Shown one piece after another: positions 13,055 to 34,570 of a DNA stretch of 35,162 nt. Under the pieces are notes generated by a model that was not told where the DNA came from, ran no database searches, and was given only the letters and a program-made list of their open reading frames with translations. How positions within the stretch are numbered: the first letter of the stretch is position 1; each line of letters opens with the position of its first letter. The stretch lies in the NCBI GenBank assembly GCA_013151835.1, contig JAADHK010000049.1, forward strand, positions 1-35,162, in the 5' to 3' direction. The stretch comes from Deltaproteobacteria bacterium (GTDB taxonomy: Bacteria > Desulfobacterota > Desulfobacteria > Desulfobacterales > Desulfosalsimonadaceae). The translations under genes and the position numbers were made by a program.

Positions 13055-14430
13055 ATACCGAAGTGTTTTTTAATTACTGCAACGATCTCATCACACAATG
13101 CCTCTGTTTCAACCCGATCAGGGCCTTCCACCATGACCCTGCACAAAGGCCGGGTCCCGGAATATCTGACAAGGACCCGCCCTCTTCCGGATAATTTTTT
13201 TTCAGCCTTGCTTATTGTTTCGGCTATTTCAGGAATGGCGAAAAAATCCGATTTTTCACATACACGGATATTTTTGAGCACCTGGGGATAAACCGCCATG
13301 ATCCGTGATAATTCGGATACAGGGCGGCCGGTTTCAACCATTGATTGAAGCAGGCGCAGGCCGGTGAGGATTCCATCGCCGGTGGTATGACGGTCCAGAT
13401 AAATCGTGTGCCCGGAATCCTCTCCCCCGATTAGTGCATTGTTCTCCCGCATTGCCTTTAATACCTGCCGGTCTCCCACGTCGGTTATCAAATGGGATAT
13501 GCCCTTGTTGGCCAGGGCCAGCCCCAGGCCCACATTGCTCATCACCGTGCTGACGACCAGGTTGTTTTTAAGCAACCCACGGTCTTTCATGAATCCGGCG
13601 CAAACAAAGAGGACCTGGTCGCCGGTAATTCGCCTTCCGGACTCGTCCACGGCGATCATCCGGTCGGCATCGCCATCAAATGCAAGGCCGATGTCGGCCT
13701 TTTTTTCAACTACCATGTGCGCAAGTGTTTCAATGTGTTGTGATCCGCAGCCGTTATTTATGTTTTTACCGTCCGGATCATTAAAAAGCACAGTCACATC
13801 CGCGCCCAGGCCTGAAAAAAATTTCGGCGCAATGCTGCTTGCGGCTCCATTTGAGCAGTCTATGACAAGCCTTACTCCTTTGAGAAATCCGGGGGCAAAG
13901 CCTTTTGTTAAAAACCGTTCATACCTTGTTTCGGCATCTTTTAAATCAGATATTACGCCGATTTCTCCTTTTGACGGAAGGGATTCGGTAAATAATGGAT
14001 TGGCTATTCTTTTTTCGATCTCCTGCTCCGTATCATCGGACAATTTGAAGCCACGGCTGTCAAACACCTTAATCCCGTTGTCCTCATAGGGGTTGTGCGA
14101 TGCGGAAACCATGATCCCGGCATGGGCGCTTATCTCTTTTGCAAGAAAGGCGACCCCCGGGGTGGGAATAACACCGGCCATATATACATTCCCACCTTGG
14201 GAACAGATTCCGGATGCAAGGGCGGAAACAAGCATATCCCCTGATTTCCGGGTGTCCTTTCCGATTACGATTTTTACATCCGCCCTCCCCTTTCCCATTA
14301 CTGCGCATACCGCCCGTCCCACCTGTAAAACAAGCTCGGGAGTCATGGGATGCCGGTTGGCAACACCCCTGATGCCATCGGTGCCAAACAACGGCTTGTC
14401 ATGCAACGGCTTATCATGGTCCGGGGTCAT
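13045..14430 (-). CDS. glmM: Phosphoglucosamine mutase
   Basis: This 461-residue member of the alpha-D-phosphohexomutase family interconverts glucosamine 6-phosphate and glucosamine 1-phosphate for UDP-GlcNAc synthesis. FGTDGIRGVAN is near residues 15-25. The phosphoserine loop is VSASHNP at 108-114, with Ser111 as the likely phosphorylated residue. The metal loop DGDADR is at 252-257 and the sugar-binding GGEDSGH at 335-341. The phosphate-binding RYSGTRP is near the C-terminus. GlmM is preferred over PMM/PGM because of the length and the GEDSGH form. The start overlaps the upstream hexapeptide gene by 4 bp (ATGA). The last codons (MEG-stop) fall inside a palindromic repeat, so the natural C-terminus may have been replaced. 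Confidence 0.95.
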   Translation of the reverse strand: MTPDHDKPLHDKPLFGTDGIRGVANRHPMTPELVLQVGRAVCAVMGKGRADVKIVIGKDTRKSGDMLVSALASGICSQGGNVYMAGVIPTPGVAFLAKEISAHAGIMVSASHNPYEDNGIKVFDSRGFKLSDDTEQEIEKRIANPLFTESLPSKGEIGVISDLKDAETRYERFLTKGFAPGFLKGVRLVIDCSNGAASSIAPKFFSGLGADVTVLFNDPDGKNINNGCGSQHIETLAHMVVEKKADIGLAFDGDADRMIAVDESGRRITGDQVLFVCAGFMKDRGLLKNNLVVSTVMSNVGLGLALANKGISHLITDVGDRQVLKAMRENNALIGGEDSGHTIYLDRHTTGDGILTGLRLLQSMVETGRPVSELSRIMAVYPQVLKNIRVCEKSDFFAIPEIAETISKAEKKLSGRGRVLVRYSGTRPLCRVMVEGPDRVETEALCDEIVAVIKKHFGMEG

Positions 14431-15632
14431 CGTTTTTCCCCGCTATTTCCGATTTTAAGCATTTTAAACCCGGGTTTCCCGCTGTCTGCCACCACGGCAT
14501 CAAGCCATGCCGTTCCGGCCTTTGCATCATCACTGGAGAGCGATTTGATAATTGTCATATAATTACAACCTTTTAATTCTATTTCATTGCTGATTGCCTT
14601 AAGAAATTGATTGCGAAGAACAACGGTATTCCCGGAATAAACAGGGTTGCGGAACATTGCAACAGCCGGGTCCCATGATGCCAAAAGCTTATCATCAGGA
14701 TTAATCATCTTGATTTTACAAATATAATCTTCAAGACGTTTAACTCTTTCGTCTATTGCTGCCGTTATGGCATCAATAAGCCCTTCATAAAGAGGGAGCG
14801 GGAAATCTTCGCATATAAAAAGGCGACGCACAAAAACATACCATTGATGCAGGGCAGCCAGGTTCCCGATATAGACGACATTGTTGGTTATGATGCGCGT
14901 GTAATTTCCGGCAGGCAAGGCTGAACGCCTGATATTCCCTTCACTTGAAGGTCCGCCGAAGATAAGGCGCCCGGGTCTAAACTCGTCTTTTCTGCAGATT
15001 GTGCCTGCGGCAATTACCGTTCCAAAGGCAAGCCGGGCCGGGCCCACAAGCCCGCCCTGCCCTCCCAGGAAAATCGGCTCCTGGTTCAACATGACGCCCC
15101 TTGGGACATCTCCCATGATCGATGGCGTGGCCTTATCCTGGAGCGGCGTGAAATTAAAATGAATATATGAACTGCCCACCTCGGAGTGGTTTTTCGCATC
15201 CGTTCCGCCGGCCATGAGGCAGTCGCAGAAATTAACCAGGCTTCCTATGGTTACATAGGGAAAAAGGATGGTCTGTTTTAATCCGACCGTATGGGCGATG
15301 CTTGCCGATTCTTCGAAAATGGTCCCTTCCCGTACATGGGCGCACGGTCCGGCTTTTGCGCCTTTTAAAAAAACGGCATTTTTAAAAAATCCGCCGGCAA
15401 GCAAAACATCCGGTCCCAGATGGCAGTTTTCAATGGTGACGGGAGACTCGTATCCGATTTGCGCGCCCTTGCAGATAAGGGTTTTGCGGCCGTATATCTT
15501 TGAACCCCCGTGAATGGTCACCCCTGCCAAAATCCGTTCAGGATCGACTTCATCCCCTATTTCCACGCATTGAGGCAAAGGAAGGCATACGCCTTTATGC
15601 ATGAGGATATTTTTCTTGTCTTCCATTTGCAT
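14427..15632 (-). CDS. Left-handed beta-helix (hexapeptide-repeat) protein, GlmU-like
   Basis: The 401-residue protein has an N-terminal half that is a hexapeptide-repeat left-handed beta-helix: ILAGVTIHGGSKIYGRKTLICKGAQIG, ENCHLGPDVLLAGGFF, and so on, to about residue 230. This resembles acyltransferase or nucleotidyltransferase C-terminal domains such as GlmU. The C-terminal about 170 residues are helical and not recognised. The segment GGTDAKNHSEVGSSYIHFNF is reminiscent of the GlmU acetyl-CoA region. No pyrophosphorylase domain is present. Its tight overlap with glmM suggests a role with amino-sugar phosphates or UDP-GlcNAc, perhaps supplying an acetyltransferase-like activity, but this is inference. 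The ATG at 15632 has GGGGTG about ten bases upstream; an ATG six bases later is also possible. Confidence 0.8.
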   Translation of the reverse strand: MQMEDKKNILMHKGVCLPLPQCVEIGDEVDPERILAGVTIHGGSKIYGRKTLICKGAQIGYESPVTIENCHLGPDVLLAGGFFKNAVFLKGAKAGPCAHVREGTIFEESASIAHTVGLKQTILFPYVTIGSLVNFCDCLMAGGTDAKNHSEVGSSYIHFNFTPLQDKATPSIMGDVPRGVMLNQEPIFLGGQGGLVGPARLAFGTVIAAGTICRKDEFRPGRLIFGGPSSEGNIRRSALPAGNYTRIITNNVVYIGNLAALHQWYVFVRRLFICEDFPLPLYEGLIDAITAAIDERVKRLEDYICKIKMINPDDKLLASWDPAVAMFRNPVYSGNTVVLRNQFLKAISNEIELKGCNYMTIIKSLSSDDAKAGTAWLDAVVADSGKPGFKMLKIGNSGEKR

Positions 15633-22799: not shown

Positions 22800-22876
22800 G
22801 CGCCCGTAGCTCAGCTGGATAGAGTACCGGACTACGAATCCGTAGGTCGCCCGTTCGAATCGGGCCGGGCGCGCCA
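22800..22876 (+). tRNA. tRNA-Arg(ACG)
   Basis: 77 nt with encoded CCA. The acceptor GCGCCCG pairs with CGGGCGC. The anticodon loop CTACGAA gives ACG (A34 is the TadA target). The T-arm is GCCCG-TTCGAAT-CGGGC. The anticodon stem CCGGA/TCCGT has a C-T mismatch at its outermost pair. That mismatch falls at the exact edge of the downstream direct repeat. The discriminator is G73. Confidence 0.93.
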
Positions 22877-23030
22877 CCAACTCAAGGGATTATGACTTAG
22901 GCCATAATCCCTTTTTAGTTCACTGCCCCATTACGGCCCCCGGTTTTTTGAAGCGTAATTTTTCTATCACAAAAAGGTGCGGGACATACAGGCAAAAAAA
23001 CCAGGTAAACTATTTTGTGTCTGCCCGGCC
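22842..23030. repeat. 188-bp direct repeat flanking the tRNA-Arg insertion, left copy
   Basis: It runs from the 3' edge of the anticodon stem through the tRNA end, its terminator and about 110 bp beyond. It recurs imperfectly at 24397-24584. The first 35 bases have a single difference; identity falls beyond the terminator. It has the form of attachment-site duplication at a tRNA 3' end, but is longer than usual core sites. Confidence 0.85.
22884..22916 (+). terminator. Intrinsic terminator of tRNA-Arg
   Basis: The 13-bp stem (AAGGGATTATGAC with GCCATAATCCCTT) has one A-C mismatch, the loop TTAG and a following T-run. It lies eight bases after the tRNA. Confidence 0.9.
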
Positions 23031-23040
23031 TTTTTTTATT

Positions 23041-23455
23041 TTCAAAACAGATAAATTTGTTCCGTTTACTTAGATCGGACCGGGAAGATTTCATGGGTCG
23101 TCCGGACCGTCTGGTCCCCGAGACGGAAATCCAATGCTATGCTTGGGTGTGGCCGACGGACCATGCGCATTTTCTCTTATTCCAATTCACATTCAAGCGG
23201 CATCTTTGTTGGCCGCGTCTCTGTTCCTCAACTTACTGCCGGTAAGCCTGCGTCGCCTCCTCCTTGCCGTCTCGATGTCATCTTGAATGCAAAATGGAAT
23301 TACGTTCCGGCGTATGCGACATTTCCACCTTTATAAGACGATTGCTTACGGGTTGTGCGGTCGGCTTTAATCGTCGTCACAAATGTCATGGCCGGATATT
23401 TCAGAATCGGTATAAATCCGTTATCTGGCAGGAAGATGTTTATCTGGAGTTCTGT
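23041..23455 (+). pseudogene. Decayed REP-associated tyrosine transposase (RAYT, Y1 family)
   Basis: Two blocks in one frame are recognisable. The first is DREDFMGRPDRLVPETEIQC then YAWVWPTDHAHFLL (about 23077-23185), matching the RAYT core YAWVxMPNHxHxLL with the HxH of HUH nucleases kept. The second is IRRLLTGCAVGFNRRHKCHG then IFQNRYKSVIWQEDVYLE (about 23327-23450). Between them an unexpected stretch of about 140 bp with an in-frame TAA at 23243 splits the domain. The start is missing and the C-terminus (normally ...RYIHLNP) is cut where the PIN gene begins. Intact members process REP palindromes. This copy cannot make a working enzyme. Confidence 0.8.
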
Positions 23456-23968
23456 TTAAGGCTGTCCCATTTGCCGGGGAGGTCGTTCTCCGGCATCCTT
23501 GAGGACCGCGTCGATCAACTCCTTACGGATATAAATGCCGTTTTCGACAAGAGCATCAATATGCGGCCTGATTGCTTCAATCAATCCCCGCCGTTTGGCT
23601 CGCAGCAGCAATCCGATGGTGCCGATCTGTTTTATGTTCAGCCGTTGTGCAATCTTTCTGGCACGCGCATCATCCAGCAGGATCGTGCAAGCGTCCATGG
23701 TTTGTGATAGGGCGATGGCTTCGGCTTCTCCGGCGTCCACAAGAATGTTCAGGGGTTTGACCAATTGGGGATCCGGTGCCTGGAGGGTTAGCCACGTTAC
23801 CTGACTTACTTCATATGCGCCAGGATGGCCATGTCCTCTCACGGTGACTTCTTTCCACACTTCCGGCGGCACAAAAATCCTGGCAAACAAACGAGGCAAC
23901 AGCTCAAGCTGATTGATCCGTGCCAGGCAGATCAGCGGGCCGCTGTCGGCGATGGCGGCGTCACGCAT
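23456..23968 (-). CDS. PIN-like (DUF3368) putative toxin nuclease
   Basis: The 170-residue protein has PIN-fold acidic residues. Asp8 lies in IADSGPLICLARI, Glu81/Glu83 in DAGEAEAIAL, and Asp99/Asp100 in LLDDARARKIA. The pattern AGEAEAI...LLDDxxAR, followed by GTIGLLLRAKRRGLI, is the DUF3368 signature. Such proteins are predicted RNases paired with small DNA-binding antitoxins. An ATG ten codons upstream exists, but the start at 23968 matches the family and overlaps the antitoxin stop by 8 bp. The toxin-antitoxin role is inferred from the pair; it is not shown. It lies inside the tRNA-Arg insertion. Confidence 0.85.
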   Translation of the reverse strand: MRDAAIADSGPLICLARINQLELLPRLFARIFVPPEVWKEVTVRGHGHPGAYEVSQVTWLTLQAPDPQLVKPLNILVDAGEAEAIALSQTMDACTILLDDARARKIAQRLNIKQIGTIGLLLRAKRRGLIEAIRPHIDALVENGIYIRKELIDAVLKDAGERPPRQMGQP

Positions 23969-24212
23969 TTTGCAACTCGTCTGCGATCTGGTCGCCATCG
24001 AGGTTTATCACCGGTATGCCCATGCGACCCAACTCGTTCATGAAATTCAATTTGGGCATCCCGCACAATTGCGCGGCCTTGCCTATGGAAAGCCGGCGCA
24101 ACTCGAACAATTTGACGGCCAGCAAAAACCGCAGTTCCTGTTCAAGCGCCTCTTTTGATTTGCCGGTTGCGACCAAAAGATCGTCGCTGTAAGGTATGGA
24201 AAGTACCTGCAT
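23961..24212 (-). CDS. UPF0175-family small protein, likely antitoxin
   Basis: The 83-residue protein has the UPF0175 pattern. SKEALEQELRFLLAVKLFE comes first, then RRLSIGKAAQLCGMPKLNF, a helix-turn-helix-like segment, and the tail MGIPVINLDGDQIADEL. Members precede DUF3368 PIN proteins, as here, and probably repress the pair and neutralise the nuclease. A weak minus-strand promoter (TTGAAT-17-TATATC, 24390-24362) lies about 150 bp upstream. Confidence 0.88.
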   Translation of the reverse strand: MQVLSIPYSDDLLVATGKSKEALEQELRFLLAVKLFELRRLSIGKAAQLCGMPKLNFMNELGRMGIPVINLDGDQIADELQNA

Positions 24213-24834: not shown

Positions 24835-25347
24835 TCATTTTTTATTCAACATGTCGCGAATCCTGGCCAGTGTATCCGCATCGCAATTGTTGATCATGGA
24901 TTTCAATTCATTTTTTTCAGGCGAAATTTCAGGCTCTTCCGGTTCCACTTCCAGTATCCCGCAGATGGCTTTAACGATACTGGCTGGTGTAATTGGTTTT
25001 TCCAAAATACATTTGGCCTGATGTCTGGCAGTAAACGCTTTAAATTCTTTAATATCGTCGGAACCAAACTCGTCACGCGCATGTGCGGTGATAACAATTA
25101 CGGGAATATCAGCCCATTCTTTGTTTTTTCGCAGTTTACGCATGAGTTTGATACCCGATTCCCTCGGCATTACCATATCCAGGGTCATTAAATCCGGCAT
25201 GTCTGATTTTACTTTTTCCAAAGCTTGAATGCCGTCGCTGGCAGTGTCAACCTGAAATCCTGCATCTTTTATACAGGTCGCAAGGAACTGTCGCACATCG
25301 GGTTCGTCGTCAATGACCAAAACTTTTTTTTCAGAAGCAGAAGCCAT
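24835..25347 (-). CDS. Orphan response regulator, rrf1-like
   Basis: The 170-residue protein has one receiver domain (about residues 7-130). The acidic pair is Asp13/Asp14, the phospho-acceptor Asp57 (TLDMVMP), and Thr87 and Lys117 complete the site. A 40-residue Glu-rich tail has no DNA-binding domain. It is the last gene of the Hmc operon, 23 bp after hmcF, with AAGGAG before the ATG. In Desulfovibrio vulgaris the hmc operon ends with rrf1 (a response regulator) and rrf2; position and type match rrf1, but no Rrf2 regulator is present here. No histidine kinase is nearby. It is similar in motif to the second regulator at 34619. Confidence 0.88.
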   Translation of the reverse strand: MASASEKKVLVIDDEPDVRQFLATCIKDAGFQVDTASDGIQALEKVKSDMPDLMTLDMVMPRESGIKLMRKLRKNKEWADIPVIVITAHARDEFGSDDIKEFKAFTARHQAKCILEKPITPASIVKAICGILEVEPEEPEISPEKNELKSMINNCDADTLARIRDMLNKK

Positions 25348-25370: not shown

Positions 25371-26699
25371 TTAATCTCCCGGCTTTTCCATCACTTCATA
25401 AAGAATATCAATAATAAATTTGGTATGCATATTCACATTATAATAAGAAATGATATCTTCCATGCCGCTGTGGCAGTTGTGACAAGGGGTTATGAGAATT
25501 TCAGCTCCGGTGTCCCTGATCTGTTTTGCCTTGACACTGTTGCTTTTAACACGTTTATTTTTAAATGGCGGCCCACAATTAATCACGCCTCCGCCTGCGT
25601 TGCAGCAATAATTATGTTCTCTGTTGGGATGCATTTCTATAAAGTTTTCACAGATTTCATTGATCACATATCGTGCTTTTTCATGCAGCCCGGCGCCTCG
25701 TACCACATTGCATGGATCATGGAGGGTTACGGATTTCTTATATTTTTCACGAATTTTAATTTTTCCTGCTTTTAAAAGGTCATAATAAAACTCGATGGCA
25801 TGAACAATAGGAATCGGCGGCATTTTCCAGCCAAGCCATCTGTTGCCCACATCATAAACGCTGCGAAATGCATGTCCGCACTCTCCCATGACAATTTTTT
25901 TAACCTTGAGCCGGGCTGCTGCATCAAACTGGGCTCTTTTTATGCGCCCCATGATTTCATTATCTCCGGTAAACATGGCCATGTCGCTGTTATCCCAGCC
26001 AGGCGTTGCCGGCATGGTCCAGTTGATCCCGGCTGTATTCATCAGGATGGCAGTATAATAGATAAGGTTGGGCTGGAATTTGGGTTCCGGTGCAATGACC
26101 GAGTACATGACATCAGCGCCTTCTTTTTCAAGTGGAATACGCAAGTTGGGCATCTCCTCACGCGCATCTTCCTCCTGCCACTGAAGTGTATCAATCCATT
26201 CATCCTCTTTTATCCACATCTGATTCATGGTGACCGAATGACTGTGTGCCGTATCCTGGATATAAAGGGGGGTCACCCCCAGTTTGTGACAAATCCTTCG
26301 AACTATCAGCAGAATATAGGCCACATCAATTCCAAAAGGGCAGTATTGTACACAGCGCTTGCAGAGATTGCATTCCGTATAAGCGACTTCTGCGGCGTCT
26401 CTGATAAATTCCGGGCTGACCCTTCCTTTTTTCTTTAATATCTCTCCCATGGTTCTTTTAACTTTGCCGGCAGGTGAAAACTTTGGATTTCTATTTTGGG
26501 AAAGATAGATATGGCATGCATCTGAGCATAATCCGCAGTGAACGCATGTGTCCACATATACTTTTAAGCGTGCGCCGGTTTCATTTTCCAGAACCGCCTT
26601 GATGACCCGGGCAATCTGGTCTCCCGTTAGTTTGTCAGCACCTTTGTCAAGTCCTTCATCAACTATTCGCTGTTCTGTTTTCTCAATAACCTCAGCCAT
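25371..26699 (-). CDS. hmcF: HmcF/TmcB, HdrD-like iron-sulfur subunit
   Basis: The 442-residue cytoplasmic subunit resembles heterodisulfide reductase HdrD and DsrK. Two [4Fe-4S] motifs come first: Cys52/55/58/62 (CVHCGLCSDAC) and Cys110/113/116/120 (CNLCKRCVQYC). CCG-type Cys modules follow: GECGHAF, HDPCNVVRGAG, YCCNAGGGVINC and TPCHNCHSG. These probably bind an unusual Fe-S cluster as in HdrB/D. It would pass electrons between the membrane cytochrome HmcE and a cytoplasmic partner, possibly a thiol or disulfide carrier. An ATG at 26726 would overlap hmcE; 26699 has a strong AGGAGG and is preferred. TmcB of the Tmc complex is the close relative. Confidence 0.92.
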   Translation of the reverse strand: MAEVIEKTEQRIVDEGLDKGADKLTGDQIARVIKAVLENETGARLKVYVDTCVHCGLCSDACHIYLSQNRNPKFSPAGKVKRTMGEILKKKGRVSPEFIRDAAEVAYTECNLCKRCVQYCPFGIDVAYILLIVRRICHKLGVTPLYIQDTAHSHSVTMNQMWIKEDEWIDTLQWQEEDAREEMPNLRIPLEKEGADVMYSVIAPEPKFQPNLIYYTAILMNTAGINWTMPATPGWDNSDMAMFTGDNEIMGRIKRAQFDAAARLKVKKIVMGECGHAFRSVYDVGNRWLGWKMPPIPIVHAIEFYYDLLKAGKIKIREKYKKSVTLHDPCNVVRGAGLHEKARYVINEICENFIEMHPNREHNYCCNAGGGVINCGPPFKNKRVKSNSVKAKQIRDTGAEILITPCHNCHSGMEDIISYYNVNMHTKFIIDILYEVMEKPGD

Positions 26700-26719
26700 C
26701 AACTCCTCCTTTTGGCATA

Positions 26720-27397
26720 CTACCAATCTCTCGCATGTCTGACTTTACCAAATTCAGACCCGATATATGCGCGTGTTAATGCCGCAAACAGCATATGACT
26801 TAACCGGGTAAATGGTATTGCCATAAGCATGATTTCTCCTGCCAGAATATGTAAAATGAGGAGTAGATCGTAATTGCCAACCTGGTGGTAGCAAAGAAAG
26901 CCTGTCACAAACGGCGCTGCAACAATCGCAAGCAGAAAATAATCAGACATGGTGGTCACGTATTTTACCTCTCGAAAAACAAGCCTGCGAACCAGGAAAA
27001 ATATACAACCGATTATCACCATCAGGGTCATGAAATCAGCTATGGACTCCGGCAATGCCCACCATCTCACATTCCAGGCGTTTTTGATAAGGACCCCGTG
27101 CCCGAGAACAAAAACAGGCGTGATTAACAGGCAAAGATGAAAGACATAGGTGACAACGGTCAGCACTGGATGCTTTCTCATATTAACCGGAAAAAAAGGC
27201 GTTACCCAGGCAATAATGGAGCGGAGACTGTACTTCCAGCTCATGTAACTGTATATGAACTTTTCTTTGCGATTTACCAGTTTTATCAAATCATAAAATC
27301 TGTAAATGCTGCCCCCGACAAATACAATAAACGCAACCCATACCAAGGGTCCGCTGACAAAGTTATATATGGCCCCAAAGCTATCAGGACTGTTCAT
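26720..27397 (-). CDS. hmcE: HmcE/TmcC, NarI-like membrane cytochrome b subunit
   Basis: This 225-residue membrane protein has five or six hydrophobic segments, matching HmcE of Desulfovibrio (about 226 residues) and TmcC. His residues within the segments (VFHLCLLI, VLGHGVL, LLILHILAGEI, RLSHMLF) can ligate two b haems as in NarI. It would connect the quinone pool with the cytoplasmic HdrD-like HmcF. It has GGAGG before the start, 17 bp after the upstream TmcD-like gene, and lies 20 bp before hmcF. Confidence 0.92.
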   Translation of the reverse strand: MNSPDSFGAIYNFVSGPLVWVAFIVFVGGSIYRFYDLIKLVNRKEKFIYSYMSWKYSLRSIIAWVTPFFPVNMRKHPVLTVVTYVFHLCLLITPVFVLGHGVLIKNAWNVRWWALPESIADFMTLMVIIGCIFFLVRRLVFREVKYVTTMSDYFLLAIVAAPFVTGFLCYHQVGNYDLLLILHILAGEIMLMAIPFTRLSHMLFAALTRAYIGSEFGKVRHARDW

Positions 27398-27414
27398 AAC
27401 GCCTCCGTAATTAT

Positions 27415-28677
27415 TTATTTTATTTCACTAAGCGAAATTATTCGTCGGTAATATTTTCCGTCTTCAATCGTTTTTACTAAAATTTTTTGACTATCCGGAC
27501 TGAACACAGGCTCCCAGGCGTCATCGCAATTTTTATGTATTTGTTTGCCGTTTATTACGATAAAATACTTTCCGTCTTTTTCTACTTTTGCCGCGACGTT
27601 CCGGCTGTCCGGACTGAAGACCGGTTTCCACGCCATGTCAAATTTACTGTCCCAGGGGCTGTCATCCACAATAATGGTAAATTTTCCATCGGTTTTCCCA
27701 ACAGCGGCAAGTCTGCTGCTGTCCGGACTAAAGACCGCATCGGTTAGCATGTCCCCGAATTGTGTATTCCACCATGCTCCATCCACGGCAAGGGTCCATT
27801 TTCCGTATGTTGGCGAAACAATTGCAGCCAGTTTATTTCCGTCCGGACTAATTAATTGCTGCCAAACCTGTAAAAACCTGCTGTCCCAGATAATGTCGCC
27901 ATCTTCAGCAATGCTCCATTTGCCGGAAACTCTTACAGGCGCGATGACTTTGCCTGACATCGGATGAATGACCGGCTGCCAGACGCAGGCGAACGTATTG
28001 TTCCAGGGAACACCGTTAACGGCGATCGTATAGGTATAAAGGTCGAGCCTGACTTCCGCTGCAACAATGGCCCCATCCGAACTAAATGCACAATTCCATA
28101 CATTTACAAATCTGGTATCCCAGGGGATACCATTTAAAGCTATGGTATATGCGCCTTCCTGGAATTTAAAAATCTCGCCTTCACCAAAATCGGCTACCTG
28201 AACGGCTGCGGAACTGTACGGTCCATAGGGGCTTAAACACATACAATTCATATTCTTGAACAAATTTTCCCATGGCACATCATTGACCACAATTCCATAC
28301 TCACCATCCTGTTGAAAGGCGGCGGCAATATTTAAACCGCCATCACTAAACATCGTATTCCAGACGTAGCTGAATTTATTGTCCCATGCATTGCCGTCAA
28401 CCGCTATGGACCACTCTTCCATTTCAGATACGATTGCGGTTAAACGGCTATCAGGTGAATATCGAAGGTGCCATATTTTATCGAAGGTATTTTCCCATAG
28501 CCCGCCGTTAACACAGACACCAAACTTATCCACATCAAGATTTACAATGGATGCTATTTTTTCTCCGTCAGGACTGGCATAAGGTTCTTCAATCCAGTTA
28601 TATGACCCTTTGACGCCATTGATGTCGGTAACAAGTTTTTCCCCGGTTTCCCAGTCCCAGTTTTTACGACCTGGCAT
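27415..28677 (-). CDS. TmcD-like Trp-rich repeat protein
   Basis: The 420-residue soluble protein consists of about ten imperfect repeats of about 38 residues, each with a pattern like W..VFSPDS..AA.V..DGK..I.V....WD.KF. This predicts a beta-propeller of the WD40/PD40 type. There is no signal peptide, Cys cluster or haem motif. It matches TmcD, the Trp-rich subunit of the Tmc complex, but here sits between hmcD and hmcE. It probably is a cytoplasmic scaffold. The ATG at 28677 is chosen for its strong AGGAGG (in the end of hmcD); an ATG at 28701 would overlap hmcD by 14 bp. Confidence 0.88.
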   Translation of the reverse strand: MPGRKNWDWETGEKLVTDINGVKGSYNWIEEPYASPDGEKIASIVNLDVDKFGVCVNGGLWENTFDKIWHLRYSPDSRLTAIVSEMEEWSIAVDGNAWDNKFSYVWNTMFSDGGLNIAAAFQQDGEYGIVVNDVPWENLFKNMNCMCLSPYGPYSSAAVQVADFGEGEIFKFQEGAYTIALNGIPWDTRFVNVWNCAFSSDGAIVAAEVRLDLYTYTIAVNGVPWNNTFACVWQPVIHPMSGKVIAPVRVSGKWSIAEDGDIIWDSRFLQVWQQLISPDGNKLAAIVSPTYGKWTLAVDGAWWNTQFGDMLTDAVFSPDSSRLAAVGKTDGKFTIIVDDSPWDSKFDMAWKPVFSPDSRNVAAKVEKDGKYFIVINGKQIHKNCDDAWEPVFSPDSQKILVKTIEDGKYYRRIISLSEIK

Positions 28678-28687
28678 TTTACCCTCC

Positions 28688-28819
28688 TTATTCATCTTCA
28701 TCTCTCTGAGTTAAAAAAAACCAGAACCCGGTTATGCAAATAAGAGAAACAAGCATCAGGAGGTAGGTGATGCTTTCAGTGTGATGCATGAAATCCTGTA
28801 GTGTAAAAAATGTTTCCAT
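28688..28819 (-). CDS. hmcD: HmcD-like 43-residue membrane peptide
   Basis: A short gene between hmcC and the TmcD-like gene encodes METFFTLQDF, then HHTES and one hydrophobic segment (about residues 16-36, TYLLMLVSLICITGFWFFL), ending with a charged TQRDEDE. HmcD of Desulfovibrio is also a tiny single-span protein in the same position. It starts 24 bp after hmcC, and its stop is part of the Shine-Dalgarno for the next gene. Size, span and position together support the call; sequence identity is not checkable here. Confidence 0.78.
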   Translation of the reverse strand: METFFTLQDFMHHTESITYLLMLVSLICITGFWFFLTQRDEDE

Positions 28820-28843
28820 TTTGATTTGTCCATAATGAAAATG

Positions 28844-30016
28844 TTAATGTGAATTCTTAAAATCCGGATGTTCATAAAGCACCGGCATTCTAGTAACAAT
28901 AAATTTATAAAAAACGATGATCAGGGTGACCATAAATACTGAAACAGCAATTTCCATCCAGCTTGGGATGTAACGTTCACTCATGGGTAATTGCCAGTTG
29001 AACGCAATGACGGATACATTCAAGCGGTTTAAAATAATTCCGCATACAGTAAGAGCAGATGTTCCTCTTATAAGTTTAAGATTTTTATCCCGCACACCAA
29101 CAGCGTAAAGAAAGCAAGGCAAGGCAACAAACCCAAGCATCTCGACGAGAAACCACAAACCATATGGAGTTGAGAGCAGGTCCCAGTGATTCCCGGCGGC
29201 GATGCCGATAACCTTTATTGTAAAATATCCGGCAAGGACAAGAGAAGCTGCTTTTCCAAATCCCAATGTGAGAGGATCACATTCTGATAGATGGGTTTCA
29301 TCCATTTTATGATGAAATACCTTATGTGAAAGGGAGCCTTCTAATATGACCATGGATAACCCTGCAATAATACTGGATATGAAAAAGAATACCGGCAGAT
29401 AGGGCGAATACCAGAGGGGATGCAGCTTAGATGGCGCAATCAGGAACAACGCACCCAATGATGACTGGTGAAGTGTGGATAATACAACACCAAGTATTGT
29501 CAGGAGCAAGGTTAGCTTTACGACAATATTCCGGGTTTTTTTGAATCCCAGCCATTCCAGTGGCGCAGGTGAAAATTCAATGAACAGAACAGTCAGATAA
29601 AGCGCAACGCACAAGCCCACTTCAAAGAGCAGGGACGTGGTCCCCCAGCCTATAATAAATGGATATGGCAGGCGCCAGGGTCTGCCAAGATCGAGAATTA
29701 GTGCAATAACCACAAAAAAGTATCCTAAAAATCCGGTGAGCAAAGCAGGTCGAACCGCTGAATGATAACGTTTCATTCCAAACAGGTAAACCGATGCGGA
29801 ACAGGTGTAACCACCAGCGGCAAGGGCAACACCACAAAGCAGGTCAAATCCGATCCAGATGCCCCATGGGTTATCGTTAGACAGGTGGGTTACCGCGCCC
29901 AATCCTTTGGTAAACCTTATAACGGTGATAATCAATCCGACCAGAATAATAATTCCCGCAATCACATTAAAAGGGGTTATCCATGACTGGCTGTCCGTTG
30001 TAATTTCTTCAGACAT
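28844..30016 (-). CDS. hmcC: HmcC, NrfD/PsrC-family membrane quinone-interacting subunit
   Basis: This 390-residue integral membrane protein has about ten hydrophobic segments and belongs to the NrfD/PsrC family. GAVTHLSNDNPWGIWIGFD early on and GRPWRLPYPFIIG near 110 are typical. The TLHQSSLGALFLIAPSKLHPLWYSP region is also typical. It has no cofactor of its own and would bind menaquinol/menaquinone and the Fe-S protein HmcB. The start shares one base with the hmcB stop (TGATG), so translation is coupled. Confidence 0.93.
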   Translation of the reverse strand: MSEEITTDSQSWITPFNVIAGIIILVGLIITVIRFTKGLGAVTHLSNDNPWGIWIGFDLLCGVALAAGGYTCSASVYLFGMKRYHSAVRPALLTGFLGYFFVVIALILDLGRPWRLPYPFIIGWGTTSLLFEVGLCVALYLTVLFIEFSPAPLEWLGFKKTRNIVVKLTLLLTILGVVLSTLHQSSLGALFLIAPSKLHPLWYSPYLPVFFFISSIIAGLSMVILEGSLSHKVFHHKMDETHLSECDPLTLGFGKAASLVLAGYFTIKVIGIAAGNHWDLLSTPYGLWFLVEMLGFVALPCFLYAVGVRDKNLKLIRGTSALTVCGIILNRLNVSVIAFNWQLPMSERYIPSWMEIAVSVFMVTLIIVFYKFIVTRMPVLYEHPDFKNSH

Positions 30017-31071
30017 CAGGAATCCTCCTTGTCCGGCTCAGCCCCGGCAACATCCTCCAGAGCTTTTTTTATTGCTTTTTCAATAGCCGTTTCTTTATCT
30101 TTTTTTGCTTTTCCCATCGCTGCTTCCAATTTTAAGTGGGCTTCGTGGTCAGCCTTTTCGGTTGCTTCGGCAACGGCCGTCTGCTGTTCTTCCATGGCGA
30201 TTTTTTCTTTTCTTTTGGTAATACCATAAACGCCGGCGAGAAGGACCGGCCACAAACCAACAACCATTGGGACAATGCTTAACGCACCGGATGTCAATGA
30301 TGGTGCGGGTGTTTCACCCAGGTCTTCGCGCATTCCAACCTCTTTAAATGGAACCGGGGATAGATATAGCCAGCTTGTTCCTCCCATTTCATGTTCGCCA
30401 TAGATATGATCCTTATAGCGCTCAGGATATTTTCGGATTCGTTTTCTGGCGATTTTAATAAGATCATCACGGTGGCCAAAGGTGAGCGCTTCTTTGGGAC
30501 AGGCTTCCACACAGCCGGGAAGCTGGCCTTTTTCAATTCGGGGCGCGCACATGGTGCACTTTAACACCCTCGGCGTCAAAGGCTCATTGTATTCATATGC
30601 AGGGATATCAAAAGGGCAAGCAACCATACAGTATCGACATCCCACACATACCGATTCGTCATAGGTTACCGGCCCTGATTTTGTTTTTTTAAGCGCCCGC
30701 ACAAAACAGACGGAGGCACATGCCGGCTCCAGGCAATGATTGCATTGAATTTTTCTAAATACAGGGCCGTCATGCCGGGTGCCGGAGTATTTATTTACCA
30801 CTGTATATGCATCCGTGCCGGTTCTTCTTTTCGTGTTCAACACCGTTAAATCGTTAAATGGCTTGTCAGGTGCAGGCAGGCTATTTACCTTGTTACAGGC
30901 AGCTTCACATTCACGGCAGCCGACACATCTTGTCATGTCGTACAGGACACCGGAAGACTTTGGATATCCTCGGAAGTGTTTATTGGAAGAAGCTCCGGCA
31001 TCTCTGCTAACCATTGATCCAATACCGGCTGCACCCAGCCAGGCCAGAAATTTTCTGCGTGAAATGGACAT
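30016..31071 (-). CDS. hmcB: HmcB, Tat-exported ferredoxin-like subunit with membrane anchor
   Basis: A 351-residue protein. The N-terminal [16 protein letters not shown] is a twin-arginine signal. Four [4Fe-4S] sites follow: Cys49/52/55/59, Cys110/113/118/122, Cys142/145/148/152, and Cys172/175/187/191. A transmembrane segment (about 275-300, [19 protein letters not shown]) precedes a Lys/Glu/Ala-rich helical tail of about 55 residues. The periplasmic part would take electrons from HmcA and give them to HmcC. The upstream in-frame ATG (31179) lies inside hmcA and is rejected; 31071 has AAGGGA and the Tat motif right after it. Confidence 0.94.
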
Positions 31072-31087
31072 AGATAATTCCCTTTTT

Positions 31088-32671
31088 CTATTTCTTTTTT
31101 TTATGACATTCGGTGCAGCCCATGGGTTTTTTAATCCCCATATTGCTGTGGCATTCCATGCACTGAATATGGTATGCACCCATTAAACCGGGCCTGAACG
31201 GGTATTGGCTTTTAAACGGCTTGCCGTGACAACTCGCACATTCAGGCGGTTTTGTGGATATTGGGCTGTTGTGATGACAGCCTTTGCAAAGTGTCCCTTT
31301 TTCACTGTGGAAATATCGAGCTAACTGGTTATCCTTTATATTAGCCAGCAGTTTAAGTACTATTTTCCGATGTGGAAATTTAACAGGTTCGTATTTGTCC
31401 GACAGTTTATTAATAATTACTTCTTCAGGTATATCCTTTGCCGGGTAAGTACCTGTAATCGGTCTTCTTGATTTAAGCAAAAAACCTGCCTTTGTCTCTT
31501 CTTTCCCGGTGGCGCTTAAATGAACAAGTGAATCAGGAAGCGGTTTCAGATGGCATTTTTTGCATTGCTCATTTGACGTATTCTGCCTTTTTCCCATAAA
31601 AGTATGACAGCCGGCGCATTTCCGACTTTTCTTCTGGCTGTTATGACATCCAATACAGCTTTGCGGCTTGTTTGATTCATGAACGGCCTGCTCCAGGTTG
31701 ATAAAGCTTCCTTCTTTTGATCCGCCAAAGGTGTGGCAGGTGTTGCAGGCCTTTAAATTTTCATGGTGACAGATGCGGCATGTATCGTTGTATTGTTCAT
31801 GGGCTTTGTGATTAAACGGGACATAATTCATCCTGCCTTTTATTTTTTCACCTTTATGCTTGCCGATTTTTATCATCACAAAGTCCGGCTGCTTGCGATC
31901 CAGTCTCGGAACGACCTTGACTTTTTTAATGGCCTGCTGCTCCTTCAAATCATGACATCCGCTGCATTTTACCGGGCCTGCTTTCTTTTTTCGATCATAT
32001 CGTTTTATATGGCAGCCAATGCATGACAAGTGCGACGCCATCTTCATGGAAATCCGATTGTCTTCGGTAACCTTTTTATGACAGTACCTGCAGGAAGCCT
32101 CATCACCTTTTTTATAAAACAATTTCTTTGATTTTTTATTGTATTCATGATGGCAGGTCTTGCATTTATTTTCGTAGGCTTTTGAATGTCTATAGTGGAG
32201 GGATTTATCCATGCCCATGGGCTGCGCTGATGATTGAAACATTTGTTTTTTCGGGTGACAGCCTGCGCAGACCAAAGGGCCGGTATTCAAATTGGCTGCA
32301 GCTCTTTGCATATGGCAGTTAATGCAGTTTACATGATAGGTATCCATTACCGTCTGTTTGTCACTATCTTTCAACCGTTTAAATTTAAGCGACAGTTTTT
32401 TATTTTCTTTTATATGGCATGACTGGCAATCTTTTCCCTGATTTCCCAATGCCTCTGTATGCAAATCATGGGGAAAAAGAACGGGAGGTCTTTCCAACTT
32501 GCCAAAAGTTTTCATAAAATCGATTGAGATAATATCAGCTCTTTTTTCAATCAATAAAGAAACATCATTTTCACTGACAGCCCTGCCGGTTTTTGCATTG
32601 ATGCCAAGAACAAAAATGATAAAAACAAACGAGATGCCAATCGTAAGTTTACTTATTCCGGGTTTCACCAT
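31088..32671 (-). CDS. hmcA: HmcA, 16-haem high-molecular-weight cytochrome c
   Basis: The 527-residue exported cytochrome has sixteen CxxCH haem sites (from CQSCH near residue 82 to CTECH near the C-terminus) by direct count. This matches the 16 haems of Desulfovibrio HmcA and its length. The N-terminus has a signal peptide with hydrophobic core [12 protein letters not shown]. Many additional His (LFPHDLH, FNHKAH, FPHR) serve as distal ligands as in cytochrome c3. Lys-rich surfaces suit docking with small cytochromes. It collects electrons from periplasmic hydrogenase or formate dehydrogenase via type I c3. A Shine-Dalgarno-like AGGGA lies about 11 bases upstream. Confidence 0.96.
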
Positions 32672-32713
32672 GTTATTGTATTCCCTGGTAGATTATATTT
32701 TTCTGTTTAGCAT

Positions 32714-32971
32714 TTACTTGTTTTGCGCCTTATACTTTTTGATTTTTTTAATCTGAATTCTATGCACGTCATCCTGCTCTTCCATATCAAGAAGTTCATA
32801 AAAGATTGCCGGAAGCACTTTAAAGATGTCTGCAACTATCTGTCTCTCTTCCGCGACTATTTCAACAACATCTCCTACTCCCATTTCTCTGAAGAGTTCA
32901 GTAAGCTCCAGGAGCGACATAGAAGTAATCTGACCTCTGAAATCGAGATAGTAATCAGCTTTGTCTTTCAA
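32714..32971 (-). CDS. TusA-fold protein lacking the catalytic Cys
   Basis: The 85-residue protein matches the TusA/SirA/YedF fold: LDFRG at residues 9-13, then helix LLELTELFREMGVGDVVEIVA, and a final strand DDVHRIQIKKIKK. TusA proteins have CPxP right after LDxxG; here it reads QITSMSL, so the sulfur-carrying Cys16 equivalent is Thr and both Pro are Ser. It has no Cys at all. It starts with TTG, with GGAG about 10 bases before, and its 5' leader begins at the sigma-54 promoter, so it is the first gene of the Hmc operon. It may be regulatory or protein-binding instead of a sulfur transferase. Confidence 0.78.
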   Translation of the reverse strand: MKDKADYYLDFRGQITSMSLLELTELFREMGVGDVVEIVAEERQIVADIFKVLPAIFYELLDMEEQDDVHRIQIKKIKKYKAQNK

Positions 32972-33004: not shown

Positions 33005-33022
33005 TTGCAAACTCGGTGCCAA
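33005..33022 (-). promoter_or_regulatory. Sigma-54 (-24/-12) promoter of the Hmc operon
   Basis: The minus strand reads TTGGCAC-CGAGT-TTGCA, full agreement with consensus TTGGCAC-N5-TTGCA. The GG is at 33020-33019 and the GC at 33008-33007, so the start is near 32996. A 25-nt leader reaches the TTG start of the TusA-like gene. Confidence 0.9.
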
Positions 33023-33178: not shown

Positions 33179-34570
33179 ATGTTTGCTAAAAATCTGGATA
33201 CGTACTGGAAAACGGTTTTTAATACCATTCAGGATGGTCTTATGATTATCGACAAGGCCGGCTCGATTGTGTCGGTAAACCGGGCGCTTGAATCAATTAC
33301 CGGCTATGGCCGGGATGAATTGATTGGAAAAACCTGTGCTATATTGAATTGTGATATTTGTGACAAAGCCCGGAGCAAGGATGTTCGTGGTGACCACTGG
33401 TGCATATTATTTCGAACCGGCAAAGTGCACAAAAAAAAATGCACATTTGAACGAAAAGACGGGACCTATGTTCATGCCTTGAAAAATGCAACGTTGCTGC
33501 ATGATAATACCGGAAAGATACTGGGCGCTGTGGAATCGGTCACAGATCTTACTGAAATAATAGAAAAAGATAATCAAATTGCTGCCTTCAGGCGTGAAAT
33601 GAAACTGGAAAATGGATTTCATGGATTGCTGGGCGCATCGGCAAATATGAAACAGACCTTTGATCTCATCGAAAATGCATCTCAATCTTCCGCGCCGATT
33701 ATTATTTACGGTGAAAGCGGGACCGGCAAGGAACTTGTTGCTGAATCGATCCACAGGATCGGCGAGCGCAGAGAAAAGCCCTTTGTAAAAATTAATTGTG
33801 CGGCGCTGACAGAATCCCTTTTGGAAAGCGAACTTTTCGGCCATGTAAAAGGCGCCTATACCGGTGCATATAAAGGGAGGTCCGGACGCTTTGAAATGGC
33901 CAGTGGTGGAGACATATTTCTTGATGAAATCGGGGATTTGCCGCTTTCCACCCAGGTAAAACTATTGCGTGTCCTGGAACAGAAAGTCATTGAGCGGGTG
34001 GGTGACAGCAGGCCGATCCCGGTGGATGTGCGCATTATATCGGCAACCAATCGCAATCTGCCGGACCTGGTGGAAAAAGGCAGATTCAGGGAGGATCTGT
34101 ATTTCAGAATCAATGTGATCCCTATTAATATCCCTCCGTTGCGAGAAAGAGCGGAAGATATCTCCATTTTGGCGGAATCCTTTTTTCAGCGAAATCGCCT
34201 GAAAACAGGAAAAAAAATTAAAGGAATCAACAAAGAAGTCATGGGTATTTTAATAAATTACAAATGGCCGGGAAATGTAAGGGAGCTGAAAAGTGTATTT
34301 GAATATGCATTTGTCACCTGCAATGAGTCTATGATTCAAGCGGAACATCTGCCGCCGAACATTATACAAGGCGTGAAACAATTCCATGTTACAGCCGCAA
34401 ACATTATGCCCCATAGGGATGAAATATTAAAAAGGAGTCTCATGGAAGCTTTGGAGCTGGCCAATGGCAATCAGTCAAAGGCGGCAAAGATTCTCAATGT
34501 ATCCAGGGTAACCATCTGGAATCGTATGAAAAAATTTAATATTAATTTTCATAAACAGATGGATGCCTAG
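33179..34570 (+). CDS. Sigma-54 enhancer-binding protein with Cys-rich PAS domain
   Basis: The 463-residue regulator has a PAS domain (about residues 5-130), an AAA+ domain (about 150-380) and a Fis-type HTH (about 427-452: NQSKAAKILNVSRVTIWNRM). The Walker A is GESGTGKE 178-185, the sigma-54 contact loop is GAYTGA 225-230 (Tyr for the usual Phe), the Walker B is GGDIFLDE 243-250, and RERAED carries an Arg finger region. The PAS has Cys53, 58, 61, 75 and 88, a pattern that could bind haem, Fe-S or a metal, or act as a thiol switch. It lies back-to-back with the sigma-54 promoter of the Hmc operon and is probably its activator. An AGGAGG precedes the ATG. Confidence 0.94.
   Translation: MFAKNLDTYWKTVFNTIQDGLMIIDKAGSIVSVNRALESITGYGRDELIGKTCAILNCDICDKARSKDVRGDHWCILFRTGKVHKKKCTFERKDGTYVHALKNATLLHDNTGKILGAVESVTDLTEIIEKDNQIAAFRREMKLENGFHGLLGASANMKQTFDLIENASQSSAPIIIYGESGTGKELVAESIHRIGERREKPFVKINCAALTESLLESELFGHVKGAYTGAYKGRSGRFEMASGGDIFLDEIGDLPLSTQVKLLRVLEQKVIERVGDSRPIPVDVRIISATNRNLPDLVEKGRFREDLYFRINVIPINIPPLRERAEDISILAESFFQRNRLKTGKKIKGINKEVMGILINYKWPGNVRELKSVFEYAFVTCNESMIQAEHLPPNIIQGVKQFHVTAANIMPHRDEILKRSLMEALELANGNQSKAAKILNVSRVTIWNRMKKFNINFHKQMDA

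Follow-up and report, generated by a model that had tools for sequence, protein, structure and literature searches.

An operon joining hmcABCD to tmcDCB in a bacterium of the Desulfosalsimonadaceae

The Hmc (HmcABCDEF) and Tmc (TmcABCD) complexes are already known, as is the view of Tmc as a simplified Hmc (PMC5109826; PMC4215793; PMC4046663), and the neighbourhood of hmc and tmc in Desulfococcus multivorans has been described (PMC5109826). The roles and the cytoplasmic partners of both complexes are not settled, DsrC or ferredoxin having been suggested as partners (PMC4215793). Tmc lacking TmcA has been described in Seep-SRB1a/1g (PMC10553843), in a paper whose main text does not mention 'hmc' (text search). 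In the openly licensed literature, covered mostly at the level of listings, no description of an operon combining Hmc and Tmc was found. Here we analysed a contig of 35,162 nucleotides (nt), called the window throughout (JAADHK010000049.1, assembly GCA_013151835.1), from a bacterium of the Desulfosalsimonadaceae, in which an operon at positions 25371-32971 joins hmcABCD to tmcDCB. The genome (G000) is a draft of 147 contigs and carries sulfate-reduction genes (DsrA above cut-off).

The interval 25371-32971 is a single run of tightly spaced genes on the minus strand, in the order TusA-fold leader-hmcABCD-tmcDCB, with no tmcA, hmcE or hmcF in the operon. The sequence-only reading had seen tightly spaced hmcABCD, a tmcD-like gene and hmcEF; hmcABCD, tmcD and the spacing were retained, whereas the last two genes proved to be tmcC and tmcB, both from NCBIfam scores and from trees. 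The gene first called hmcE scored 342 bits with the TmcC model (cut-off 240) and 200 with the HmcE model (cut-off 275), and the gene first called hmcF scored 823 bits with the TmcB model (cut-off 735) and 388 with the HmcF model (cut-off 750). In the corresponding trees HmcF and HmcE each formed a separate clade (27 and 31 rows, support 100 for both), the window's genes falling inside Tmc and TmcC, respectively. Neither HmcE nor HmcF is thus present in the operon by cut-offs or by clades, and since both models stayed below their cut-offs, the proposal of a full Hmc set with TmcD inserted into it was rejected; the Tmc part consists of three genes and not of one. The proposal of an Hmc/Tmc hybrid operon held, and goes further than was claimed, HmcABCD being joined to TmcDCB. 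The trees that had been suggested as a check spoke for the hybrid and against the hmcEF naming. The tetrahaem cytochrome TmcA is missing from the operon, and no TmcA scored above cut-off in the window's genome, the best match being a TmcA-like protein on contig C5 (94 bits, cut-off 114). The features, in window coordinates, are as follows.

33006..33021, minus strand: predicted sigma-54 (-24/-12) promoter, a perfect match to TGGCACN5TTGCA, 50 nt before the leader start codon
32714..32971, minus strand: TusA-fold leader of 85 amino acids with a TTG start; Pfam PF01206; Thr at the position of the catalytic Cys
31088..32671, minus strand: hmcA, 16-haem periplasmic cytochrome; NF045713, 634 bits (cut-off 400); 16 CXXCH-type motifs; match to the solved high-molecular-weight cytochrome, PDB 1gws (E=1.6e-137)
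30016..31071, minus strand: hmcB, periplasmic 4Fe-4S protein with a Tat-type N-terminus; NF045715, 544 bits (cut-off 420); start chosen at MSISRRKF, the frame being open from 31179
28844..30016, minus strand: hmcC, NrfD-type membrane subunit with quinone site; NF045714, 671 bits (cut-off 550)
28688..28819, minus strand: hmcD-like peptide of 43 amino acids with one hydrophobic stretch; a homologous peptide stands at the same place in canonical hmc operons
27415..28677, minus strand: tmcD, beta-propeller subunit; NF045725, 599 bits (cut-off 440); start chosen after AAGGAGGG, the frame being open from 28701
26720..27397, minus strand: tmcC (not hmcE), NarI-like membrane cytochrome b; NF045723 and tree
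25371..26699, minus strand: tmcB (not hmcF), HdrD-like protein with two 4Fe-4S sites and a CCG domain; NF045724 and trees; frame open from 26726
24835..25347, minus strand: response regulator, last gene of the run and outside the interval 25371-32971; Pfam; homologue at the same place in loci L184, L188 and L191 and in genome G436
33179..34570, plus strand: divergent PAS/AAA+ sigma-54 activator of the NtrC type; Pfam; homologue (68-71% identical) at the same place in L184, L188 and L278
34619..35002, minus strand: response regulator beside the activator; Pfam; homologue (62-71% identical) in L184, L188 and L278

The last base of hmcB is the first of hmcC, and tmcD has its own Shine-Dalgarno sequence about 10 nt after hmcD. 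The run probably continues into the response-regulator gene at 24835-25347. TmcB retains the cysteines of the two 4Fe-4S sites and of the CCG domain that are common to all 14 aligned TmcB/HmcF rows. The AlphaFold2 prediction for TmcD (predicted local distance difference test score, pLDDT, 93.2) is an all-beta repeat protein whose matches, by sequence and by fold, are WD40-type propellers, with low global template-modelling scores (TM-scores) for the fold matches.

Compared with Hmc, the operon shares HmcA, HmcB and HmcC, which pass equivalog cut-offs, an HmcD-like peptide, and a response regulator at its end. Rrf1 is a response regulator as well. The rrf1/rrf2 genes regulate hmc in D. vulgaris (PMC10924467). 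It differs from Hmc in having TmcC, TmcB and TmcD in place of HmcE/HmcF and in the addition of a cysteine-less TusA-like leader and a sigma-54 site. Its TmcB, TmcC and TmcD pass the Tmc cut-offs and keep the canonical D-C-B order but, unlike in Tmc, TmcA is replaced by the 16-haem HmcA and the NrfD-type HmcC. The nine-haem Nhc system, of the hmcABC type, is likewise an Hmc-related operon devoid of hmcEF, but its cytochrome is shorter, with nine haems, and no Tmc genes are attached (PMC4215793); 9-haem HmcA-B-C loci were found in L139 and L151. The layout of hmc and tmc in Desulfococcus multivorans was met again in G161, at about the same genome positions, and G161 was taken to represent this strain.

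The same gene order was looked for elsewhere, as had been proposed, and was found. A scan of GTDB genomes gave 211 TmcD relatives, the best 80 of which were retained and classified by script rules. The hmcC gene lay less than 400 bp upstream of tmcD in 6 of these 80 loci (L184, L186, L188, L191, L213 and L215), the recurring junction being hmcC-(hmcD)-tmcD-tmcC-tmcB; hmcC was further upstream in two (L247, L252), 51 were canonical tmcDCBA and 21 were cut off or unclear. Four of the six (L184, L186, L188, L215) hold everything from hmcA to tmcB on one contig, while the contig of L191 begins within hmcC or immediately ahead of it and that of L213 opens with a split hmcC. These two hybrids were pieced together from two contigs each: L278 would be the front of the L191 operon (G431) and L277 that of the L213 operon (G432), a link inferred from the shared genome and from the fact that both L278 and L277 stop within hmcB, at the edge of a contig or at a cut. 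The hmcC of L213 (2-1109) reads as two overlapping frames, through sequencing error or decay.

A sample of 395 genomes from the phylum, which shares some genomes with the GTDB set so that the counts are not additive, yielded 45 TmcD loci (42 above cut-off, in 41 genomes, and three of 367-370 bits). One was of the window type, the window itself; 15, in 14 genomes of families f38, f48 and f64, were tmcDCB-hmcABC operons; 18 were canonical and 11 were cut or otherwise arranged. Within the window's own family (36 genomes), hmcC was absent from the 0.5-1.5 kb or more read upstream of all 20 other full TmcD loci. The tmcDCB-hmcABC operons join the same two kinds of module as the window, but in reverse order, with HmcA and HmcB clades of their own and, in f48, a very distant HmcC, so the linkage arose independently of the window type. 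None of the 14 genomes, three of which are single contigs, encodes TmcA above cut-off; the f64 genomes have an unlinked TmcA-like protein of 80-89 bits, below cut-off. From these comparisons, Hmc-type ABC seems to function together with Tmc-type DCB, and to do so in no fewer than two independent settings. Further variant loci were noted. In L077, L078 and L079 (f38) tmcB falls into two reading frames, and in the same genomes the match contains one TGA, possibly a selenocysteine codon. L049, L050, L053 and L055 (f27) have the order tmcB-tmcD-tmcC-tmcB, with two TmcB genes and no adjoining TmcA found, and L062 and L064 (f47) have tmcD with neither tmcB nor tmcC beside it. In L054, tmcDCBA is followed by a full hmc operon.

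We consider it probable that the products of the operon form one mosaic transmembrane electron-transfer complex, HmcABCD with TmcDCB. Its periplasmic and quinone-facing half would be of the Hmc kind (16-haem HmcA, HmcB, NrfD-type HmcC and HmcD) and its membrane and cytoplasmic arm of the Tmc kind (the cytochrome b TmcC, the CCG/Fe-S protein TmcB and the propeller TmcD). This placement, with HmcA/B/C on the periplasmic and quinone side, TmcC in the membrane and TmcB/TmcD on the cytoplasmic side, follows from what is known of the families. Electrons could then move in one direction or the other, with the cytochrome c3 pool of the periplasm and/or menaquinone at one end and, at the other, a cytoplasmic partner recognised by TmcB, and the TusA-like leader would be a cysteine-less scaffold or sensor and not a sulfur carrier. 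As to possible partners and donors, DsrA scored above cut-off in G000 and in five of the seven other genomes searched. Large-subunit matches to [NiFe] hydrogenase above the Pfam cut-off were found in four of the eight genomes, the match in G000 being a partial one of just 67 residues, so a common role of hydrogen as electron source is not evident.

The window's genome contains a second locus, on contig C5 (G000:C5), which consists of hmcE, hmcF, genes for a universal stress protein (USP) and a response regulator (RR), and the TmcA-like tetrahaem cytochrome gene. Its HmcE (322 bits, cut-off 275) and HmcF (904, cut-off 750) pass, and its cytochrome is the TmcA-like protein that stays below the TmcA cut-off. 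The same hmcE-hmcF-USP-RR-TmcA-like cluster was found in G428 and G433, and G432 has a TmcA-like gene at a contig edge. Three hybrid carriers (G000, G428 and G433) therefore hold, at a second locus, the converse combination of hmcEF with a TmcA-like cytochrome. In L137 and L138 (f3) and in L142, L147 and L152-L154 (f49), hmcE-hmcF likewise stands beside a small cytochrome gene with 3-4 haem motifs and without adjoining hmcABC, as in G000.

The operon might alternatively be a rearranged regulon in which two ordinary complexes share one promoter, HmcABCD assembling with the HmcEF of the second locus and TmcDCB with the TmcA-like cytochrome. That G000, G428 and G433 hold all the lacking parts in one cluster speaks for this. 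It is set against hybrid carriers that lack such parts: no HmcF was above cut-off in G429 and G430, where all candidates were scored, and no match to TmcA in G430 exceeded 46 bits, although G429 also holds a separate full Tmc. The genome G607 (91% complete), which has the same leader in the corresponding position, was taken to be the same genome as G430. Neither HmcF, among the four best candidates scored per genome, nor TmcA was above cut-off in the 14 tmcDCB-hmcABC genomes, so that HmcABC would work there without HmcEF, and the TmcA-like protein of G000 itself falls short of the TmcA cut-off. On this balance we regard two ordinary complexes as unlikely, though they are the most serious competitor of the single mosaic complex.

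The sequence-only reading had also suggested that the hybrid was the ancestral form of both complexes. Trees were midpoint-rooted, except for the main TmcB/HmcF tree (109 of 130 rows used), which had one distant outgroup row; only frames above a length and score limit entered as rows, which left the split hmcC of L213 outside the HmcC tree, and the 108-row TmcD set, the 53 TmcB and 52 TmcD rows and the 129 TmcC/HmcE rows were thinned by hand. The seven window-type TmcB formed one clade (Shimodaira-Hasegawa-like approximate likelihood-ratio support, SH-aLRT, 98 with 109 rows; 99/94 in the 53-row TmcB tree) adjoining the canonical Tmc of L233, G429 (L275) and G436 (L313). The hybrid TmcC formed one clade inside canonical Tmc (7 rows, 99), and the hybrid HmcA one clade inside canonical Hmc (5 rows, 99/98), as did four of the five HmcB rows (99/95); five of the six HmcC rows grouped together (90/90). 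The nesting of HmcA, HmcB (4/5), TmcC and TmcB in the canonical families indicates, on phylogenetic grounds, that the window-type hybrid is derived and not ancestral. The tmcDCB-hmcABC operons of f38, f48 and f64 do branch near the Tmc base, and the linkage of Tmc and Hmc modules there could be old. Their HmcA (100/100) and HmcB (91/84) are nevertheless clades of their own and their HmcC are not one group, and the window-type hybrid is deeply nested in the two canonical families. We thus hold a hybrid ancestor, as the source of both Hmc and Tmc, to be very improbable, and for the window's operon the proposal is contradicted.

A likely parent of the hybrid is shown by G436, which has a TusA-like leader, a divergent activator, hmcABCD and a trailing regulator as in the window, but with hmcEF in place; another TusA-like leader is located elsewhere in this genome, about 1 kb upstream of tmcDCBA. 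Most likely, the hybrid originated when tmcDCB took the place of hmcEF in an operon of the order TusA-like leader-hmcABCDEF-regulator. A single inversion of the canonical hmc/tmc neighbourhood would put hmcD before tmcD, but does not yield the unidirectional hmcE-F-USP-RR-tmcA-like order of the second locus, for which reason the replacement is preferred. Two loci in which hmcBCD or hmcABCD lies about 2 kb before tmcDCB (L247 and L252) were considered as intermediates and rejected, since the TmcB of L252, like the HmcC of both loci, has another place in the trees; here the two operons seem to have come close to each other independently. The order in L252 (1763-14028) is hmcEF, hmcABCD and then USP-RR-tmcDCBA.

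Several observations weigh against the picture of one mosaic complex with a clean order of events. The window's genome encodes HmcEF and a TmcA-like protein on another contig, and two ordinary complexes could assemble from them. The lack of HmcF in the 14 genomes rests on four best candidates in each and not on an exhaustive search, and completeness was not reported for G428-G433, which were reached through named loci. No DsrA was above cut-off in G432 and G433; either sequence is missing or DsrC is not a general partner, so it need not be the partner everywhere. No hmcD was found in L188 (7582-9790), whose HmcB and HmcC are of a distant type and group with L145, its HmcA and TmcB being still of the hybrid type; judged from the trees, its hmcB/hmcC are a second replacement. 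TmcD is weakly resolved, with 82 in the 108-row tree and with the window apart from the other hybrids at 44/11 in the 52-row tree. When G436 was added, in trees built without the f38/f48/f64 group and L140 and, in the case of HmcB and HmcC, without L143-L145 and L188 as well, it came among or beside the hybrids in HmcA, HmcB and HmcC. The HmcC of the window even pairs with that of the hmcEF-bearing G436 (96/95), and because of this pairing it is possible that the swap happened twice, or once with a later reversal. Finally, three of the seven hybrids (L186, L215 and L277, of the L213 genome) showed neither the leader nor the sigma-54 site.

An assembly or binning chimera that joined two operons would be compatible with a draft of 147 contigs and with the lack of a second genome of the window's genus among the 36 of its family, but it is hardly conceivable and was rejected, since the same junction is carried by six other named assemblies, some of which have the flanking regulators and promoter in common, and since tmcD follows hmcD after 10 nt with a Shine-Dalgarno of its own.

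The second-locus HmcF of G000 is 93% and 88% identical to those of G428 and G433, far above the identity of RpoB (73% and 69%), whereas the same-family genomes G134 and G333 are 80% and 78% identical to G000 in RpoB but 70% in HmcF. This difference points to horizontal transfer of the second locus. The hybrid operon was probably also moved horizontally, although the case is weaker; it is based on the trees, on a guanine-plus-cytosine (GC) content of 43.6% in the operon, compared with 49.2% on its left side but with 46.5% over the 12 kb to the right of the window, and on two features of the left border, a tRNA-Arg and a UPF0175/DUF3368 pair. The tRNA-Arg and then this pair, which we take to be toxin-antitoxin-like, occupy 22800-24212, where GC drops from about 49% to about 43%, and the segment looks like the edge of an acquired region. 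Related sigma-54 regulators (72% identity) border the second locus of G000 (L121, 66-1445) and follow the L188 hybrid operon (14077-15453); the two loci may once have been neighbours.

The TusA-fold leader that the sequence-only reading had placed as the first gene was confirmed by its Pfam match (PF01206, 33.6 bits, cut-off 28.6, E=3.5e-8) and by its fold, its catalytic cysteine being lost, however. The AlphaFold2 model, built from three sequences (pLDDT 86.8), matched TusA structures 3lvj (E=5.6e-4; TM-scores 0.71/0.78) and 1dcj (E=3.5e-3; TM-scores 0.77/0.80). The CPxP motif carries the catalytic cysteine of TusA, and the position aligned to the Cys of 1pav is Thr or Ala in all four hybrid leaders (Thr in the window; Ala, Ala and Thr in its relatives). 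A role as sulfur carrier was therefore rejected and the leader was not filed as a sulfurtransferase. These four leaders belong to the window, L184, L188 and L278 (of the L191 genome); in L186 an Rrf2-type regulator stands in the leader's place. All four are preceded by a perfect sigma-54 element 49-58 nt before the leader start (TTG). In the window alone, 1.34 matches with at most one mismatch were expected by chance and such matches were present in 74 of 100 shuffles, so it is the perfect match at the same place in four loci that makes the sigma-54 assignment convincing. Expression of the operon probably depends on sigma-54, with the divergent activator as the switch.

Relatives of the leader were found in 121 of 321 genomes of the order (E<=1e-5). 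Among the 20 such loci listed, 19 adjoin an activator, five precede hmcA (the window, G607, G465, G648 and G436) and nine precede a 4Fe-4S protein gene read as HdrC-like, a reading checked with Pfam on one of them (L314). Operons with HdrC-like 4Fe-4S genes headed by a cysteine-less TusA-like gene and a divergent sigma-54 activator were seen in L297, L299, L301, L304, L307-L311 and L314; L314 has a perfect sigma-54 element in front, and continues with CCG, methylenetetrahydrofolate reductase and HdrA-like genes.

A wider proposal, which we put forward tentatively and rate below an even chance, is that Hmc and Tmc exchanged halves reciprocally, that carriers run HmcABCD-TmcDCB and HmcEF-TmcA-like complexes instead of the two textbook ones, that both loci spread horizontally between families, and that CCG-type (Hdr-like) electron-transfer operons would have, in the cysteine-less TusA-like protein and its sigma-54 activator, a portable control cassette. 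The recurrence of the gene order suggests exchangeable modules as the building blocks of these respiratory complexes. In practice, tables that score a genome as having Hmc or Tmc from one marker gene can misread the genomes that bear the hybrid. A natural half-and-half complex would allow two questions to be taken separately, namely which of the halves determines the periplasmic and quinone side and which one selects the partner in the cytoplasm, and a clean test would be possible in carriers that lack HmcEF or TmcA.

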